Below, in pieces: positions 18,520-27,142 of a stretch of DNA of 32,139 bases; the first letter of the stretch is position 1, and each line of letters opens with the position of its first letter. The position numbers and the translations under genes are program-made. Origin of the DNA: Chloroflexota bacterium. GTDB lineage: Bacteria > Chloroflexota > UBA6077 > FW602-bin22 > CADDYW01. The notes beneath the pieces are model-generated. The model did no database searches, was not told the DNA's origin, and saw nothing but the letters and a program-made list of their open reading frames with translations. Where the stretch lies: assembly GCA_021323915.1 (NCBI GenBank), contig JAJPKB010000269.1, positions 1-32,139 on the forward strand. Direction: 5' to 3'.

Positions 18520-20313
18520 ATGCCCATGCAAACCGCGGAGTTGACCGCCACCGAGCCGGCGAGCCGAGGTCCTCTCGGCGTGAATCGATTCGTCTTCTGG
18601 ACAATAATTCTGGTCATCGTGGCGGTCCTCGTATACGCCGCGTATGTGCTCGTCCGCTCGCCGGAAAACACGGCTCCGGCCGTGTCCACGGTGCCGGCCG
18701 AGCTGGGATCGATCAGCGGAGTCGTGAACAGCACCGGACAGGTCGCACCGCTAACCGAGGCCAAGCTGTCCTTTCGAACGAGCGGGCGAATCGTCTCGAT
18801 CCCGGTGCGCGTGGGCGACGCGGTCAAGGCCGGCGCCACCCTCGCGAGCCTGGATACGACCGACCTGAAGATCCAGGTAGAGCAGTCCCAGGCAAATCTC
18901 GACAGCGCTCAGGCGAAGCTGGACGCGATCGAGACGGGACCGCGCCCCGAGGACGTCGCGGCCGCGAAGGCCGCGCGGGACGCCGCCCAGGCTAAGCTCG
19001 ACGGGATGCTGGCCGGGGGACGGCCCGAGGACGTCAAGTCGGCTCAGGCGGCGCTCGCGAGCGCCCAGGCCAAGCTGCACGAGCTGAAGGCCGGCTCGCT
19101 GCCGAGCGACCTGGCGTCCGCCCAATCCGACGTCGATAAGGCCCAATCGACCCTGGCGACCGCGAACGCGAACCTCGCGAACCTGCTGCGCCCGCCGGAC
19201 CCGCTCGCGGTCCAATCCGCGCAGTTGGCGGTTCAGCAGGCTCAGGATGCCCTCTGGTCGGCGCAGTCAAGTCGCGACGGAACCTGCGCTCCCCAGAATC
19301 CCCGTTATCTCTGCGACGCGGCGGACGCGACCGTCGCATCTGACGGGGTGGCGCTCCAGCAGGCGCAGGTGAAGCTCGCGCAACTGCAGGAGACGGCGAA
19401 GCCGGAAGACGTCGCGGCAGCCAAGGCGGCCGTGGCGAGTGCCCAGACTCAGCTCGACAGCGCCAGGGTGAAGCTGGCTCAATTGAAGGCCGCGCCGGTG
19501 TCCGACGACGTCATCCAGGCCGAGGCGGCGGTGACCCAGGCCCAACAGAATCTGGACTTGAAGAAGCAGCCGTACAGCGACTCGGACATCGCTCAGCAGC
19601 GTCAGGCGGTTGCCCAGGCGCAGGCCCAGCTCGCTCTGAAGATGGCCCCTTACACCCAGTCGGACGTCGAGGCCGCGAAAGCCGCGGTAAGCCAGGCCAA
19701 GGCGCAGCTCGACCTCGCCCAATACAATCTGGATTCCGCCACCTTGAAGGCGCCCTTCGACGGGATCGTCAGCGCGGTGAACGCCGACGTGGGCGAGCTT
19801 GCCTCGAGCGGAGCCGGTGGGTCGATCGTCTCGATCGTGGACCCGAATGACCTTCGCCTTGACGTCAGCGTCGACGAGACCGACATCGCCAACGTGGCGG
19901 TCGGTCGCGACGCCAATGTGACGTTCGATGCCCTGCCGTCGAAGACGTTTCCCGGAAGGGTGGTTTCCATCGCGCCGAGCGCGTCGGTCCAGCAGGGCGT
20001 CGCAACGTATCTGGTGTCGATCTCGCTGAAGAACGCGGCCGGGGTGAGGCCCGGCATGACTGGAAACGCCGACATCGTCTACGCGCGCCACGACAACGTG
20101 CTTCTGGTTCCGAATCGCGCGGTGCGCACCGAAGGCAATCGTCGGGTCGTGTCGGTGCTGGACGGCAATAAGATCGTCCCTCATCCGGTGACGGTCGGAA
20201 TCAGCGACGATCAAAATACCGAGATCCTATCCGGCCTGAAGCAGGGCGACCAGGTGGTGATTCCGGTCACCTCGTCCGTTCTGCCACCGTTCGCGGGAGG
20301 ACCGGGACGCTAA
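18520..20313 (+). CDS. MacA/HlyD-type periplasmic adaptor with long repeated coiled coil
   Basis: 597 residues, longer than the 370-450 usual for MacA-like adaptors. One N-terminal membrane anchor (about 24-46), a lipoyl half-motif ([18 protein letters not shown], 88-105), then some 290 residues of Ala/Gln-rich helix (117-408), the second lipoyl half ([15 protein letters not shown]) and a beta-barrel/membrane-proximal part to the end. The helix is built from about eight repeats that start with P-x-D-V/L ([30 protein letters not shown] and others), broken by an insert with C256 and C265. It joins the MacB-like ATPase and permease that follow; GGGAG precedes the ATG. Confidence 0.92.
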
Positions 20314-20314
20314 T

Positions 20315-21082
20315 GTGAGCGCATTACGTGCTGACGGCCGCGACGGAGCGGCCGGGCAGCCGGTCATCGTTGCCCGAGATCTAACCAAGGTGTACCGGGT
20401 CGGAACGCAAGAGGTCCACGCGCTACGCGGGGTGTCGTTTACAATCGAGCGCGGCGAGTTGGTCGCGATCATGGGACCATCGGGCTCCGGAAAATCGACG
20501 CTGATGAACGTGCTGGGATGCCTGGATCAACCCACGACCGGCCAGTACTTTCTTGACGGGGTCGAGATCGCCCGCCTTGACGACGACCGATTGTCCGCGA
20601 TACGCAACCGAAAGATCGGCTTCGTCTTCCAGACGTTCAACCTGCTGGCGCGCACGACCGCGGTGGAACAGGTGGAGCTGCCTCTGCTGTACGCGGGAGC
20701 GCCCCACCGTCGCCAGAGGGCGCTCGAGGCGCTTGCCATGGTGGGGCTGGCGGACCGGGGTCGCCACCGCCCCACCGAATTATCCGGTGGGCAGCAGCAA
20801 CGAGTCGCGATCGCGCGGGCTCTGGTGACCGGTCCAAGCCTGATTCTCGCGGACGAGCCAACCGGAAACCTTGATACCCGCTCCAGCGAAGAGATCATGG
20901 CGATCTTCCAGCGGCTGAATCAGGAACGTGGGATCACGGTCGCTTTCGTGACCCACGAAGCCGACATCGCTGCGCATACCCGACGGATCATTCTGATCCG
21001 AGACGGCTCGATCGTCAGCGACGAACCGAATCGGTCGCCTCGTCAGGCCTACCAGCCCGATGGCGTGAGGGCGAGCGGATGA
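20315..21082 (+). CDS. ABC transporter ATPase (MacB/LolD type)
   Basis: 255-residue nucleotide-binding subunit. Walker [10 protein letters not shown] (54-62), Q-loop VFQTFNLL, signature LSGGQQQR, Walker [13 protein letters not shown] and H-loop VTHE are all present. The [11 protein letters not shown] and early [17 protein letters not shown] patterns place it with the MacB/LolD/FtsE group that powers FtsX-type permeases, rather than with nutrient importers. Start is GTG 20315, one base after the adaptor stop; GGAGG lies 14 bases upstream, so coupling is likely. Its stop overlaps the permease start as ATGA (21079-21082). Confidence 0.96.
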
Positions 21083-22332
21083 ACGTCTGGGAAAGCGCCC
21101 GGGTTGCCTTGCGCGCCCTGCTCGCCAATAAGCTACGGGCGATTTTGACGGTGCTTGGTATCATCATCGGCGTCGGGGCAGTGATCGCGCTCATCTCGGT
21201 TGGCCAGGGAGCCCAAACCCAGATTACTCAGAGTATTCAGTCGCTTGGAACGAATTTGCTTTTCATTCGACCGGGAGCGCTGCAAACGGCTGGCGTCCGC
21301 CAGCAATCGGGAAGCTCGCCGACCCTTACCTACGAAGATGCCCAGGCGATCGCGCGCGACGGGGATTTGCCGATCGTCGCCGTCGCCCCGGAGGTAGGCG
21401 CATACGGTCAGATCGTCTTTAACCGACACAACTGGAACACCCGAATCACCGGAACAACGCCGTCGTACGCGGAGGTTCGAAACTTCTCGGTGGCGGACGG
21501 CGCGTTCATCGATCAACACGAGCTCGACGCGCGTTCGCGGGTCGTCGTCCTCGGCCCAACCGTGGCTTCGAACCTGTTTCCTGACCGCGATCCGGTCGGC
21601 CAGACGGTCAAGATCAGCGTCTCGGGGCGGGTTGGCGAGAACTTCAAAGTCGTGGGAGTGACGAAAGCCAAGGGCGCTAGCGGCTTCGGCAGCGAGGACG
21701 ACCAGGTATTCGTCCCGTTAACGACGATGCAGCAGCGGATCCTGGCCCAGGTCACGGCTCGAGGGCTTCGCAACGTCAACGTGATCAATGTCCAGGTGAT
21801 CTCGCCGAGCCAGATGAGCCAGGCAATCGCCGGCATTGGCGAGCTGCTGCGCGAACGGCATCGAGTGAGTCAGGACGACTTTACGATCACGAGCGAGCAA
21901 GACATCCTTGGCTTCTTCGGTCAGGTGACCAGCGTCTTTACGATCGTTCTCGGGGCCATCGCCGGGATCTCGCTCGTGGTTGGCGGCATCGGGATCATGA
22001 ACATCATGCTCGTATCGGTGACCGAGCGGACTCGCGAGATCGGCATACGGCGCGCAGTTGGCGCACGCCGCCGGGACATCCTGGTCCAGTTTCTTGTCGA
22101 GGCAGTGGTCGTCAGCCTGGTCGGCGGAGCAATGGGCGTTATGCTCGGCGTCGCGATCGCTCGTGCCCTGTCGCGCGTGCCGGTCAACGGTCAGTATCTC
22201 GAGACGGTTGTCTCGCCGGGCTCGGTGGTGCTCGCCTTCGGGGTGTCGGCGGCAGTTGGCCTGTTCTTCGGGTTCTACCCGGCGCTGCGGGCCTCGCGCC
22301 TTCACCCCATCGATGCGCTTCGCTACGAATAA
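21079..22332 (+). CDS. FtsX-type ABC permease (MacB membrane subunit)
   Basis: 417-residue membrane protein with the MacB topology: TM1 (about 18-42, [20 protein letters not shown]), a large extracytoplasmic MacB_PCD domain, then three C-terminal helices (about 285-310, 335-360, 385-408) with the conserved cytoplasmic loop [19 protein letters not shown]. The domain splits cleanly from the separate ATPase gene; in E. coli MacB they are fused. The system likely pulls substrates (peptides, antibiotics, lipids or proteins) across the envelope with the adaptor at 18520. Confidence 0.95.
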
Positions 22333-22347: not shown

Positions 22348-23835
22348 GTGAGGAAGGCTTATCTCTGGATCGTCGCGTTCGCGCTGGCCCTTTCCCTGGC
22401 GCCGTCGACGGCGTTCGGGGCACCGGCGGCGCGGTACTTTCCGCAAACCGGTCACTGGGTCCAGGGAGACTTTCTCGCGTTCTTCGATCAGCACGGTGGG
22501 CTGGCGATCTTCGGCTATCCAAGGACCGAGCAGATGGTCAGCGATGGGCGGGTTGTTCAGTATTTTCAGCGCGCCCGCATGGAAAGCTGGCCAAGTAATC
22601 CGCCACCGTACAACGTTCAGCTGATGCTGATCGGCGACGCGGTCATGGGGCCAGGCGACCCCCCGATTCCGGCCAGCCAGATTCCCACGCCCAACGATCC
22701 GACGCGCACCTATTTCCCGCAAACCGGCCACACCCTTTCCGGGGCGTTTCGTGATTACTTCAACGCCCACGGCGGCTTGATGATCTTTGGCTATCCGACC
22801 TCGGAGCCGTACGTCGGTCCGAGCGGCTTCCTCATTCAGCGGTTCCAGCGTGCCCGAATGGAGTACCATTCCGAGCTTCCGACGGACTATCAGGTCTCGC
22901 TCGGCCTCCTGGGCGACGAGTACGTGTTCGGAATGGACATGGTTTCGCCCGCGGCCACCCGCCCGGTCTCGGGCGACGCGGTGCCGACGCTCGCGAATAC
23001 CGGAGATGGAAAGATCGTCTTTCAGACGAAGCCCAGCGGCGACCTGATCGTGTCCAACCTCGACGAGACCGATGCGCACGTGGTGGGACTGGGAATGGAT
23101 CCGGCGTGGTCGCCGGACGGGACGAAGATCGCTTACGCCAAGTGGGGAGAAAACGCTGGCATTTACGTCATGAACGCGGACGGTACCGGCGCCCACCAGA
23201 TCTACGCGGATCCCCAGGATCGAGCGCCGGTCTGGTCGCCGGATGGTACCCAGATCGCCTTCTATCGGCGATACGACGGCGACCTCTGGAAGCCGGATCA
23301 CTCGTCGAAGGAAGACTTCTTCCAGGTGGTTGTGCTGAACCTGAAGGACAACACGAGCTGGCTGCCGTCCAATCAAACGGAGCATTGCTATTCTCCCAGC
23401 TGGTCGCCGGATGGCAAGCAGCTCGTGATGAACTGCGACGGCGGATTGTATCTCGCCACCGAAAACCAGCCGATAACCCAGATCCCGAACACCGACTTCC
23501 TGTTTACCACCCCTACCTGGTCGCCCGACGGCAAACAAATCGCTTTCACCTATCGCAATCACGACCACTGGGACGTCGGGGTGATCAACCCGGACGGCAC
23601 CGGATTCGGCCTGCTCACGAGCGGCACGGTGATGGCGTCGGCCGCGGTGAGCAACGCATCAGCCGCCTGGTCTCCCGATAGCCAGCATCTGATCTTCGTT
23701 TCAAATCGGTCAGGAAGCTGGAATTTGTATATCATGAATCGTGATGGGTCCTCCGTCGTGCCGGTGGGTACGACGGCGCTCGACTACACGGACTCGTACG
23801 ATCGAGTCGTGTCCTGGAAAAAAGGTGAATCGTGA
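22348..23835 (+). CDS. secreted repeat protein fused to a TolB-like beta-propeller
   Basis: 495 residues. Signal peptide 1-24 (ends TAFGA). Two repeats follow, at about 30-100 and 122-191, each with YFPQTGH, an HGGL-x-IFGYP core and QYFQRAR/QRFQRAR; this repeat is frequent in secreted Chloroflexota proteins and recalls LGFP-type cell-wall repeats. Residues about 215-495 form a TolB/WD40-like propeller with the blade motif WSPDG seen four times and WSPDS once (e.g. DPAWSPDGTKIAYA). Start GTG 22348, with GGAGG five bases upstream; 15 bases after the permease. The stop overlaps the response-regulator start (GTGA). Function unknown; a scaffold or sensor for the neighbouring export and two-component genes is plausible. 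Confidence 0.88.
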   Translation: MRKAYLWIVAFALALSLAPSTAFGAPAARYFPQTGHWVQGDFLAFFDQHGGLAIFGYPRTEQMVSDGRVVQYFQRARMESWPSNPPPYNVQLMLIGDAVMGPGDPPIPASQIPTPNDPTRTYFPQTGHTLSGAFRDYFNAHGGLMIFGYPTSEPYVGPSGFLIQRFQRARMEYHSELPTDYQVSLGLLGDEYVFGMDMVSPAATRPVSGDAVPTLANTGDGKIVFQTKPSGDLIVSNLDETDAHVVGLGMDPAWSPDGTKIAYAKWGENAGIYVMNADGTGAHQIYADPQDRAPVWSPDGTQIAFYRRYDGDLWKPDHSSKEDFFQVVVLNLKDNTSWLPSNQTEHCYSPSWSPDGKQLVMNCDGGLYLATENQPITQIPNTDFLFTTPTWSPDGKQIAFTYRNHDHWDVGVINPDGTGFGLLTSGTVMASAAVSNASAAWSPDSQHLIFVSNRSGSWNLYIMNRDGSSVVPVGTTALDYTDSYDRVVSWKKGES

Positions 23836-24512
23836 GTACCATACTCATCGTCGACGATGAAAAAAACATCGTGCAGCTCACGCGCATGTACCTGACAAAC
23901 GAGGGGTTTCAGGTCGAGGTCGCGTACGATGGCCGCGAAGCGCTGGAAAAGGCGCGGCAATCGAAGCCAAGCCTGGTTATTCTGGACCTGATGCTGCCGC
24001 AAATTGACGGCCTGGAGGTGTGCAAGCAGATTCGGCGCGAGAGCGACGTTCCGATTATTATGCTGACCGCCCGCGGAGACGACGTGGACCGAATTGTCGG
24101 TCTGGAGCTCGGGGCAGATGACTACCTTCCGAAGCCCTTCAATCCGCGCGAGCTGGTGGCTCGGGTGAAGGCGGTTCTTCGCCGCAGCCGTCCGGTCGAC
24201 AAGCCACCGGAAGCCCTCTCTCTCGGCAATCTACGGGTCGATCCAGCTCGGCGTGAGGTATCGGTGGGCGACCGGCCGGTGACCCTTCGGGCGAAGGAGT
24301 TCGATCTTCTCCTGACGTTCGTCCAGAACGAGGGATTGGTTCTCGACCGGGAACGCCTGCTCAACCTGGTCTGGGGATACGACTACCTCGGCGACTCGCG
24401 AACCATCGACGTTCACGTGACCTGGTTGCGCGAGAAGCTCGCCGGAAGCACCTGTCGGATCCAAACCGTCTGGGGCGTCGGCTACAAGCTGGTGAACCAA
24501 GAGGTCGCCTGA
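23832..24512 (+). CDS. OmpR-family response regulator
   Basis: 226 residues. Receiver domain with acidic pocket (VDDE), phospho-acceptor D52 (LVILDLMLP), T79 (IIMLTA) and K101 (YLPKPFN), then a winged-helix DNA-binding domain (from about 128, with RAKEFDLLLTFVQNEGLV and SRTIDVHVTWLREKL). GTG 23832 overlaps the stop of the secreted propeller gene as GTGA, preceded by AAAGGTG. It is the partner of the kinase one base downstream and probably regulates this operon. Confidence 0.96.
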   Translation: MSTILIVDDEKNIVQLTRMYLTNEGFQVEVAYDGREALEKARQSKPSLVILDLMLPQIDGLEVCKQIRRESDVPIIMLTARGDDVDRIVGLELGADDYLPKPFNPRELVARVKAVLRRSRPVDKPPEALSLGNLRVDPARREVSVGDRPVTLRAKEFDLLLTFVQNEGLVLDRERLLNLVWGYDYLGDSRTIDVHVTWLREKLAGSTCRIQTVWGVGYKLVNQEVA

Positions 24513-24513
24513 C

Positions 24514-25971
24514 GTGTTCGGCAGCCTTCGCTCCAAGCTGATCGCCTCGTATCTGATCGTCATCTTTCTTTCGCTCGCCCTCGCGGGAAGCGGCTTCACT
24601 TACCTGGTGCGCGCTTATCAGACTCAGCTCCGTCTGAACCAGCTCGGCGATCTATCGCTGCCACTCACGTTTCAGCTCCGGCGCTTCGAGCGCGCTGGTG
24701 CTTCCCCGTTGGAGATCGACCAATTCTTGAGAGATCAGGCGAGCCAGCTTCACGTGCGGTTGATCCTGGTCAATTCGCAGCATCAGATCACCCACGATAC
24801 CGGCACGACATTGCTTGGACAGTATTTACCAGCCCCCTCGGACCAGCGTACCCGTTCGGCGATTACTCTCGAATGGGGCCGGCTCGAGCCACCGGGAGAG
24901 CAACCCCTGACGTTTGTCATCGTCGAGTCCGGGGGAGATCGTGATGGGGCCCACCCCGCCCCCGACGATCTCGCCCTCGCCGTTCCCGAGCAGTCGGTCT
25001 CGAGCGCTTGGCTTCAGATGGCGCCGGGGCTGACCGGCGCCGCGATTCTCGCCGTCATCATCTCGATTGCGGTTGCCCTCTGGCTTGCCCGATCGATCGC
25101 CGGTCCCCTGGGTCAGGTCACCCGAGCGTCGGAACAGATGGCGCGTGGCGACTTCGAGCAGTTCATCCCGGTCGGCAGCCACGACGAGGTCGGTCAGCTC
25201 GCGACCAGCTTCAACACGATGGCGCGCGAGGTCGGACGCATGCATCAAACGATGCGCGATCTACTGGCGAATGTCTCCCACGATCTGCGCACGCCGCTCA
25301 CCTCGATCGAAGGCTTCGCCCAGGCGATGACCGACGGCACGATCAAGACGCCCGACGAGTACGCCGACGCGGCGCGCATCATCGGCGAAGAGGCCGACCG
25401 AATGCGCCGTCTGGTCGAAGATCTCCTCTACCTCTCGAAGATCGAGTCAGGACAGATTCCGATCCAGCGCAAGAGCCTCCAGCTTCCCGATCTGCTGCAG
25501 GCCTGTGTCCGTCAGGTGCAGCCTCAGGCCTCCCACGCCGGGTTATCGGTCGAGTTCGTCGCCGCGCCGGTGCCGGCGGTGATGGCAGACGGGCACCGCC
25601 TCCAACAGGTGTTTGTCAACTTACTGGACAACGCGGTCAAGCACACGCCGTCGGGAGGCATCGTTCAGGTGCGCGCCTACAGCGACGTCAGTCAGACGAG
25701 CGACCTCGATGCCGCGCGCGCACGGCGAAAGTCGGCCCCGGGCTGGGTGGCCGTCGAGGTGCACAATCCGGGCTCGCACATTCCACCCGAGCACATCAAT
25801 CGAATCTTCGAGCGCTTCTATCGGGTCGATCGTTCCCGCTCCGACGATAGCAGCGGGCTGGGTCTGGCGATCGTTCGCGAGATCGTCCAGGCGCACGACG
25901 GTCGAGTGACGGTGAAAAGCGATGCCGCGACCGGCACGACGTTCACCGTTTATCTACCGTCGGCAGCGTGA
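24514..25971 (+). CDS. membrane sensor histidine kinase
   Basis: 485 residues. TM1 about 9-31, an extracytoplasmic sensor of about 140 residues, TM2 about 172-192, HAMP (about 193-245), HisKA with phospho-acceptor H256 (NVSHDLRTPLTSIEGF), and a HATPase domain with N box NLLDNAVKHTP and G boxes (SSGLGLAIVREIVQAHDG). No recognised sensor family is seen in the extracytoplasmic part, so the stimulus is unknown. Start GTG 24514, one base after the response-regulator stop. Likely signals envelope state to the regulator before it. Confidence 0.95.
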   Translation: MFGSLRSKLIASYLIVIFLSLALAGSGFTYLVRAYQTQLRLNQLGDLSLPLTFQLRRFERAGASPLEIDQFLRDQASQLHVRLILVNSQHQITHDTGTTLLGQYLPAPSDQRTRSAITLEWGRLEPPGEQPLTFVIVESGGDRDGAHPAPDDLALAVPEQSVSSAWLQMAPGLTGAAILAVIISIAVALWLARSIAGPLGQVTRASEQMARGDFEQFIPVGSHDEVGQLATSFNTMAREVGRMHQTMRDLLANVSHDLRTPLTSIEGFAQAMTDGTIKTPDEYADAARIIGEEADRMRRLVEDLLYLSKIESGQIPIQRKSLQLPDLLQACVRQVQPQASHAGLSVEFVAAPVPAVMADGHRLQQVFVNLLDNAVKHTPSGGIVQVRAYSDVSQTSDLDAARARRKSAPGWVAVEVHNPGSHIPPEHINRIFERFYRVDRSRSDDSSGLGLAIVREIVQAHDGRVTVKSDAATGTTFTVYLPSAA

Positions 25972-25990
25972 GATCGAGGAGGATCAATAC

Positions 25991-27142
25991 ATGGTAGCCC
26001 TGCGAACGGTTCTCTCGGCATTCTTCGGCGCGGCGTTCGGAGCAGCGCTGGTGCTGGTGGTGATCCGCGCGACGCCGGTTGGCGACGCGCGGGCGAGCAG
26101 CCAGTTGGAGGCCTCCCACGTGCACCAGGCAGTCGACGTTCCCACGGTCTCGTCTGCGGTGGGGGCAGTTTACCGGCAGGACAATGCGGGAGTCGTCAGC
26201 ATCGAGACCTCGCAAGCGAGCCCGGCGACGAATCTTTTCGGGCGGCAGGGGCAGTCGGAGGGCGCGGGATCTGGCTTTGTCGTCGATACCCAGGGTAACG
26301 TGGTGACCAACGATCACGTCGTGAACGACGCCACCAGCGTGCGCGTGGTCTTCAACGACGGGACGAGCGTCTCCGGCAAGGTCGTGGGGCAGGATCCCGG
26401 AGATGACCTCGCGGTAGTGAAGGTGGACGTAGCAGCAAACCGCCTCCACCCTCTCACCATCGGCGACTCCAGCACGGTGGCGATCGGAGAACCGGTGGTG
26501 GCGATCGGTAATCCCTTCGATCTTCACAACACGGTGACCAACGGCATCGTCAGCGCGTTGGGACGAACGCGGACGGCGCCGAATGGGCGGTCGATCGCCA
26601 ATATGATCCAGACCGACGCGCCGGTGAATCCGGGTAATAGCGGTGGTCCGCTCCTCGACGACCAGGGGAATGTCGTAGGCATCGTCTCGCAGATCGAGAG
26701 TCCCGTTCGGGGGTCGGTCGGCGTCGGATTCGCGATACCGTCGAGTACGCTGACGCGGAACCTTTCCACGCTCGAAGCGGGAGGAAAGGTGCACCACGCC
26801 TGGCTGGGAATCAGCGGTGAGGAGATCACCCCTGATCTGGCACGAAACCTCGGCCTGACCGTCACCTCGGGGGTATACGTGGTGAGCGTGGCCCCCGGTG
26901 GGCCAGCCGACAGCGCCGGAGTTCACGGGGCGCCGGGCAATGCGGCCGGCGACCAGACGCCGGCGGGCGGCGACGTCATCACCCAGGTGGACGGCGTCGA
27001 CGTTCACTCGGTTCAGGACATCGGCAACGACCTCGACGGCAAGAGTCCTGGCGACAGCGTTACTCTCACCGTGCTGCGTGGTGGGAAGTCGTTGACCCTG
27101 ACGGTGCAGCTCGGGGACTGGCCCGATCAGATGCCATCCTGA
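25991..27142 (+). CDS. HtrA/DegP-type serine protease with PDZ domain
   Basis: 383 residues, anchored by one N-terminal helix (about 4-26). Trypsin-like domain with triad H109 (VVTNDHVVND), D139 (PGDDLAVVKV) and S217 (PGNSGGPLLD), followed by one PDZ domain (about 265-378; HAWLGISGEE, GDVITQVDGV). It degrades or refolds misfolded extracytoplasmic proteins. Start ATG 25991 chosen because GAGGAGG lies before it; an upstream open frame would overlap the kinase. Nineteen bases follow the kinase stop. Its 3' end overlaps the convergent DUF1015 gene by 16 bases. Confidence 0.95.
   Translation: MVALRTVLSAFFGAAFGAALVLVVIRATPVGDARASSQLEASHVHQAVDVPTVSSAVGAVYRQDNAGVVSIETSQASPATNLFGRQGQSEGAGSGFVVDTQGNVVTNDHVVNDATSVRVVFNDGTSVSGKVVGQDPGDDLAVVKVDVAANRLHPLTIGDSSTVAIGEPVVAIGNPFDLHNTVTNGIVSALGRTRTAPNGRSIANMIQTDAPVNPGNSGGPLLDDQGNVVGIVSQIESPVRGSVGVGFAIPSSTLTRNLSTLEAGGKVHHAWLGISGEEITPDLARNLGLTVTSGVYVVSVAPGGPADSAGVHGAPGNAAGDQTPAGGDVITQVDGVDVHSVQDIGNDLDGKSPGDSVTLTVLRGGKSLTLTVQLGDWPDQMPS

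Follow-up and report, generated by a model that had tools for sequence, protein, structure and literature searches.

We report that an adaptor protein of 597 residues, encoded in a 32,139-nucleotide stretch of DNA from a soil bacterium of the Chloroflexota (hereafter the window), contains an exceptionally long coil that is best read, from its sequence and predicted structure, as a single antiparallel alpha-hairpin of 5 + 5 stacked helical segments, with a pair of cysteines at its turn. Large hairpins are known in the adaptors of Gram-positive bacteria and have been called difficult to rationalise in the account given by PMC4446572. In the open-licence literature we found no report in which an adaptor hairpin has a Cys tip or mirrored segments, or in which pump classes have a tip in common. 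With the present data the puzzle of large hairpins without TolC gains testable handles, namely co-varying arms, a tip motif conserved with three transporter superfamilies of one genome and an all-or-none Cys pair. Should the tubes reach across the envelope, supposed one-membrane pumps would work as trans-envelope machines in this phylum, a major one in soil, and the outer envelope of the Chloroflexota is itself debated, as the discussions in PMC8871954 and PMC7332563 indicate. The adaptor may show how bacteria in which no TolC-type outer-membrane channel is seen send compounds across the cell envelope.

Sequences and models

Relatives were collected for their similarity to the window adaptor and therefore form a non-random sample. 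The adaptor set (n = 118) was defined by an N-domain match with E ≤ 1e-2, a C-domain match with E ≤ 1e-4 and a coil of at least 40 residues; long coils were those of at least 180 residues (n = 64), leaving 54 shorter adaptors. The input alignment of the AF2 model held 20 sequences, all picked as bearers of the Cys pair, so that the invariant Cys columns in it are no evidence of conservation.

The adaptor gene and its operon

The adaptor is made up of an N-terminal transmembrane helix (residues 24-44), a beta-barrel, lipoyl halves and the giant hairpin. Its order of elements in the AF2 model is that of the adaptor architecture, with a predicted helical hairpin between two lipoyl half-motifs, followed by the beta-barrel. 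It scored 183.2 bits against TIGR01730 RND_mfp (cut-off 94.9) and 58.8 bits against HlyD_3 (cut-off 22.2), and HlyD_D23 was also above its Pfam gathering score, but it stayed below the MacA equivalog cut-off (NF008606, 95.5 bits against 342 needed). The genes from the adaptor onwards are as follows.

18520..20313, + strand: MacA/HlyD-type adaptor, 597 aa (TIGR01730, HlyD_3, AF2)
20315..21082, + strand: MacB/LolD-type ABC ATPase, 255 aa (ABC_tran, 122.1 bits; best NCBIfam profile, MacB)
21079..22332, + strand: MacB-like permease, 417 aa (Pfam MacB_PCD and FtsX)
22348..23835, + strand: secreted PD40 beta-propeller with weak LGFP-like N-terminal repeats (Pfam scan)
23832..24512, + strand: response regulator (Response_reg and Trans_reg_C)
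24514..25971, + strand: sensor histidine kinase (HAMP, HisKA, HATPase_c)

Judged by these profile matches, the adaptor, the adjoining ATPase and the MacB_PCD/FtsX permease together are a predicted MacAB-like ABC exporter. A PD40 gene lies downstream of the pump genes in all five related loci scanned, and its PD40/LGFP-like product is a possible candidate for a pump-associated wall-binding or sensing protein. The response regulator, which also occurs at the related locus L050, is likely to be the regulator of the operon. At L050 (3193-6695, in the same-family genome G001) the PD40 gene follows directly after the adaptor and the ABC ATPase and permease genes are missing from the interval, which counts against reading the adaptor as the tube of a MacAB-like pump. 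An HtrA-like trypsin-PDZ protease at 25922-27142 overlaps the end of the histidine kinase gene and possibly belongs to the same envelope-stress operon.

The host draft genome comprises 5.78 Mb in 694 contigs and is 94% complete and 8.8% contaminated. The closest named relatives, at 75, 67 and 59% identity, come from Chloroflexi bacterium records, and a plasmid search returned distant adaptors only.

Length and breaks of the coil

The coil was computed to occupy residues 112-409 (298 residues), within a few residues of the span 18880-19743 that an earlier note on this DNA, made by inspection of the sequence, had assigned to it. Measured by a uniform boundary rule it has 289 residues, while the coils of the 54 shorter adaptors in the set have 52-169. 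This bears out the view in that note that it is far longer than usual. The number of repeats varies among relatives, the coils of the long adaptors ranging from 183 to 629 residues.

Eight helix breaks interrupt the coil. The repeats had been described as starting with P-x-D-V; the strict form P-x-D-[VIL] is present at four of the eight breaks (residues 143, 169, 195 and 295), where 0.21 are expected and 1 in 20000 coil shuffles reaches four, but the remaining four are looser (DPLAV, PVSDDV, PYSDSDI and PYTQSDV). Segments are 26 and 33 residues long, thus differing by one heptad, and are symmetric in their placement. That adaptor hairpins lengthen through the addition of heptads to both helices is known from PMC4446572; what is unusual here is the scale and the pairing of the breaks.

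Predicted topology of the hairpin

The AF2 model of the adaptor has a mean pLDDT of 83.6 and a pTM of 0.42. In the model, five helices run out (26, 22, 23, 29 and 28 residues) and five run back (29, 29, 22, 22 and 26 residues), with the predicted turn at residues 256-261 and 128 helical residues assigned to each arm by DSSP. The segment lengths of the two arms are thereby mirrored around the Cys.

18859..19284, + strand: outgoing arm of the hairpin, helices 114-139, 143-164, 169-191, 195-223 and 228-255 (AF2 DSSP)
19285..19314, + strand: hairpin tip with C256 (19285-19287) and C265 (19312-19314) (sequence)
19303..19734, + strand: returning arm of the hairpin, helices 262-290, 295-323, 328-349, 354-375 and 380-405 (AF2 DSSP)

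Since the ten helices are modelled as five up and five down, what the earlier note took for an insert that separates repeats 4 and 5 is the turn of one hairpin; with this refinement, the observation made in the note is confirmed. At 1.5 Å per residue each arm would, by simple arithmetic, be at most about 213-216 Å long if straight, and the hairpin could thus reach up to about 210 Å, roughly three times as long as the E. coli MacA hairpin. The breaks might serve as hinges.

Structural comparison aligned the model, along its base, with MacA (5nik_D; Z 20.1, 299 residues, 3.7 Å, model residues 51-583) and with Spr0693 (5xu0_B; Z 16.9, 220 residues, 3.7 Å). In the upper part, within the coil, residues 193-324 match the coiled coil of colicin E3 (Z 10.9, 132 residues) and residues 132-383 that of Smc (Z 10.5, 243 residues, rmsd 15.7 Å), coil Z scores near 10 being attainable by helical models through a common arrangement alone. 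An AF2 model of the relative L075, which has arms of 243/243 residues, was too poor for use (pLDDT 56.7).

Mirrored arms among relatives

In 27 nr80 relatives with the Cys pair, the lengths of the two arms correlate with r = 0.997 and the pair sits at the midpoint of the coil (fraction 0.506, sd 0.004), even though arm length varies between about 105 and 258 residues. Arm equality is poorer in the longest Cys coils (258/240, 256/240 and 217/208). A mirror partner no more than four residues away was found for 76% of the breaks in these 27 coils, against 21% (sd 3.6) for random breaks.

Break symmetry could be scored for 53 of the 64 long coils, the other 11 (10 without Cys, and L042 with Cys) having too few breaks. 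Mean symmetry about the midpoint was 0.89 in the 27 Cys coils and 0.76 in the 26 Cys-less coils, compared to null values of 0.24-0.26 when segments were rotated and 0.33-0.37 when they were permuted. The rotation null was beaten at 0.05 by 24 of the 27 Cys coils and 18 of the 26 Cys-less coils, and the permutation null by only 13 and 10 respectively, since near-equal segments limit the permutation test. Coils of the Patescibacteria type are mirrored mostly without significance. Cys-less long adaptors are mirrored too, as in L068 (coil 626), where all scored breaks have partners, and L034 (coil 629), where 86% do. These two (L068 1983-4862, L034 1-2877) have 20-21 breaks mirrored about the centre and, if single hairpins, would have arms of more than 300 residues each; the turn of L068 is rich in Ser, Thr and Gly.

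The same coil might instead form several short hairpins, or a bundle folded back as in CusB, whose hairpin is described as folding back on itself (PMC4446572), giving a compact domain and no rod. The breaks, spaced by 26 or 33 residues, might be turns, and the pTM of 0.42 would also fit such a domain. Arm lengths and breaks, however, mirror one central point across relatives, which a zigzag would have no need to do, and the two coil regions named above align to two-stranded rods; a hairpin that folds back at a matched pair of breaks would still be compatible with the mirroring. We regard a compact domain as very improbable overall, and eight tandem short hairpins in particular were rejected on account of the single centre of mirroring and the rod matches. 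The extended long hairpin proposed in the earlier note is thus favoured by two independent lines, the model with its structural matches and the equality of the arms with their mirrored breaks, and prediction of the adaptor alone gave one hairpin and no array of short ones.

A cysteine pair at the turn

Two Cys are present in 28 of the 64 long coils and none in 36, and no coil has a single one. With 56 Cys in 20001 long-coil residues and each long coil holding exactly two or none, a chance pair is ruled out. Each of the 28 pairs is located at the turn, with its Cys spaced by 7-14. The Cys are therefore conserved as a pair at the turn, in an all-or-none manner, and the two residues that had been placed nine apart at a hairpin tip (C256 and C265) are indeed found there, in a pair conserved at the coil midpoint. 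The pair occurs in 28 of 49 long coils of the Chloroflexota type and in 0 of 15 whose records lack Chloroflexi in the title. In a tree from which the coil was left out, made by a quick method and with several long branches, the Cys state changes at least five times on well-supported branches and ten times by parsimony.

The 28 Cys tips share the consensus QAKDALWSAQxxRDxxC...CxAA, with D at -3 in 24 and A at +3 likewise in 24. Mean column entropy is 1.9 bits up to 20 residues from the Cys and 2.4-2.6 bits far along the arms. In the longest Cys-tipped adaptors (L031, L033, L036, L075 and L076) the Cys are kept and the RD motif is absent.

C256 and C265 most likely form a disulfide that staples the tip. 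It is improbable, and independent of the role of the hairpin, that the pair is a metal ligand or a redox sensor and no staple. Searches for VKOR, DSBA and Thioredoxin_4 gave no match in the host draft genome (94% complete), which together with the variable Cys spacing would suit a metal or redox site. On the other hand, the Cys offer two ligands only, the residues that separate them include no His, Asp or Glu that is conserved, and all-or-none conservation suits a disulfide at least equally. Of 41 genomes, 23 have VKOR; the three relatives from the same family are all among them, and the Cys-tip genomes G004, G005 and G011 are not.

No TolC match in the host genome, and a tip common to three pump classes

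The TolC-family profile OEP (PF02321) had 0 matches in the host draft genome (94% complete), with control matches in 7 of 14 genomes, and the Omp85, secretin and SLH profiles had no match in the host genome either. OEP matches were obtained in 5 of the 41 genomes, partly via adaptor coils: those at G002:C84, G019:C72 and G028:C475 fall inside adaptors or share an open frame with them and were for this reason taken as cross-hits and rejected as TolC. Matches in the class relatives G024:C298, G027:C12 and G028:C452 are apparently genuine; TolC may be present somewhere in the class, or these contigs may be contaminating.

The TolC-binding RLS motif, defined as RxxxLxxxxxxS (PMC3391258), occurs in none of the 28 Cys tips, that of the window included. 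It is present in 21 of the 54 short adaptors and in 1 of the 36 Cys-less long coils, L117 from the cyanobacterium Phormidium. Since the host genome has no OEP match and the tip no RLS motif, TolC-type docking of the adaptor is disfavoured and was set aside as a candidate, in keeping with the suggestion in the earlier note that in a host lacking a TolC-type channel such a hairpin would need another use.

The host genome encodes nine long adaptors of full length, and six of them carry the Cys tip. According to the Pfam assignments, their neighbours are MacB permeases (window, C324 and C489), RND transporters (C44 and C380) and an MFS transporter (C494), so that one tip is common to three pump superfamilies. 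The locus L040 (656-6443) is an MFS efflux operon with two adaptors, one long and Cys-tipped and the other without a hairpin; short adaptors also adjoin long ones at L060, L063 and L064.

In Gram-negative bacteria the three pump classes share TolC. By analogy, the Cys tip could bind a shared candidate exit duct, or a wall or outer-layer protein, that would stand in for TolC with all three classes, ABC, RND and MFS. The single tip motif for three pump classes in one genome and the lower column entropy near the Cys would fit this docking, as would the outer-membrane-like layers described for some Chloroflexota in PMC7332563. No partner gene was found among the OEP, Omp85, secretin and SLH profiles in the host genome, and the RD motif is missing from the five longest Cys-tipped adaptors; we consider a common docking partner rather unlikely.

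The hairpin could also serve as something other than a conduit: it might be a cage with foldase activity, work mechanically as a lever, or scaffold the secreted PD40/LGFP-like protein of the operon. A foldase role has been suggested for large Gram-positive hairpins in PMC4446572, and the place of the PD40 gene after the pump in all five related loci scanned would fit a role of this kind. Against this, the RND and MFS paralogs carry the same tip, and their neighbours as scanned are transporters and one hairpinless adaptor, with PD40 absent among those. A non-conduit role is, in our judgement, decidedly unlikely.

Proposed mechanism

On balance we lean towards a hexameric long tube, with a disulfide-stapled tip, that would conduct substrate through a layered envelope without TolC; the hexamer, the disulfide, the conduit function, the export of a substrate and a partner at the tip are what we infer. 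By analogy with MacA and Spr0693, six adaptor copies would form a tube on a MacB-like dimer. Spr0693 is a solved hexameric MacA-like tube from a Gram-positive host, and the pneumococcal assembly has been modelled at 154 Å (PMC5768738). The long hairpins of the window adaptor would extend the tube outward, well past this height. Substrate would then leave, independently of TolC, at a point past the membrane-proximal space, either within the peptidoglycan or outer layer or on its far side. The paired breaks may lend flexibility, and the disulfide staple may hold the tube at its open end.

The envelope to be crossed is described in differing terms. Gene content is reported to suggest one membrane in the Chloroflexota (PMC8871954), while cryo-ET as presented in PMC7332563 showed layers resembling an outer membrane in two Chloroflexales strains out of three and no thick wall of the Gram-positive type in Roseiflexus; a thick wall should therefore not be assumed. 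It is possible, if still doubtful, that TolC-less Chloroflexota have a trans-envelope efflux architecture independent of TolC, in which the adaptors of ABC, RND and MFS pumps are all ruler-like tubes, lengthened by matched pairs of segments so as to fit the envelope, and the common Cys-stapled tip engages a shared putative exit duct or outer-layer partner.

Comparison with known systems

E. coli MacA, of the MacAB-TolC system, shares the adaptor fold and the MacB partner with the window adaptor, the two aligning over 299 residues at 3.7 Å. It differs in having a hairpin of 67 Å (PMC4158417) and the RLS motif for TolC binding; in the window adaptor this motif is absent, no TolC-family gene was found in the host draft genome and the score is below the MacA equivalog cut-off.

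EmrA of Aquifex aeolicus (4tko) likewise has an exceptionally long two-stranded hairpin, with phase shifts at mid-length in both helices, as described in PMC4158417. At 127 Å and 168 residues in a TolC-type system it differs from the window adaptor, which has about 290 residues in ten segments, and the description in PMC4158417 mentions no Cys tip.

The Firmicutes adaptors YknX, MesE, ComB and others also have large hairpins in Gram-positive hosts, a likeness drawn by description only (PMC4446572), and section 36 of that source describes no Cys tip for them. Among Patescibacteria, the adaptors L081, L083-L088, L090, L092 and others are homologous, with coils of 237-330 residues, but are always Cys-less and have another turn, besides their mostly non-significant mirroring.

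The Spr0693-Spr0694-Spr0695 operon of Streptococcus pneumoniae (5xu0) similarly combines an adaptor with a separate ABC ATPase and a MacB-like permease. Its adaptor has the same lipoyl, beta-barrel and hairpin order, and 220 residues align at 3.7 Å. The alpha-barrel of Spr0693, however, is 56 Å high, with the turn at 142-163 untraced (PMC5768738), whereas the window adaptor is predicted to have about 128 helical residues per arm, in segments, and a turn that bears the Cys pair.
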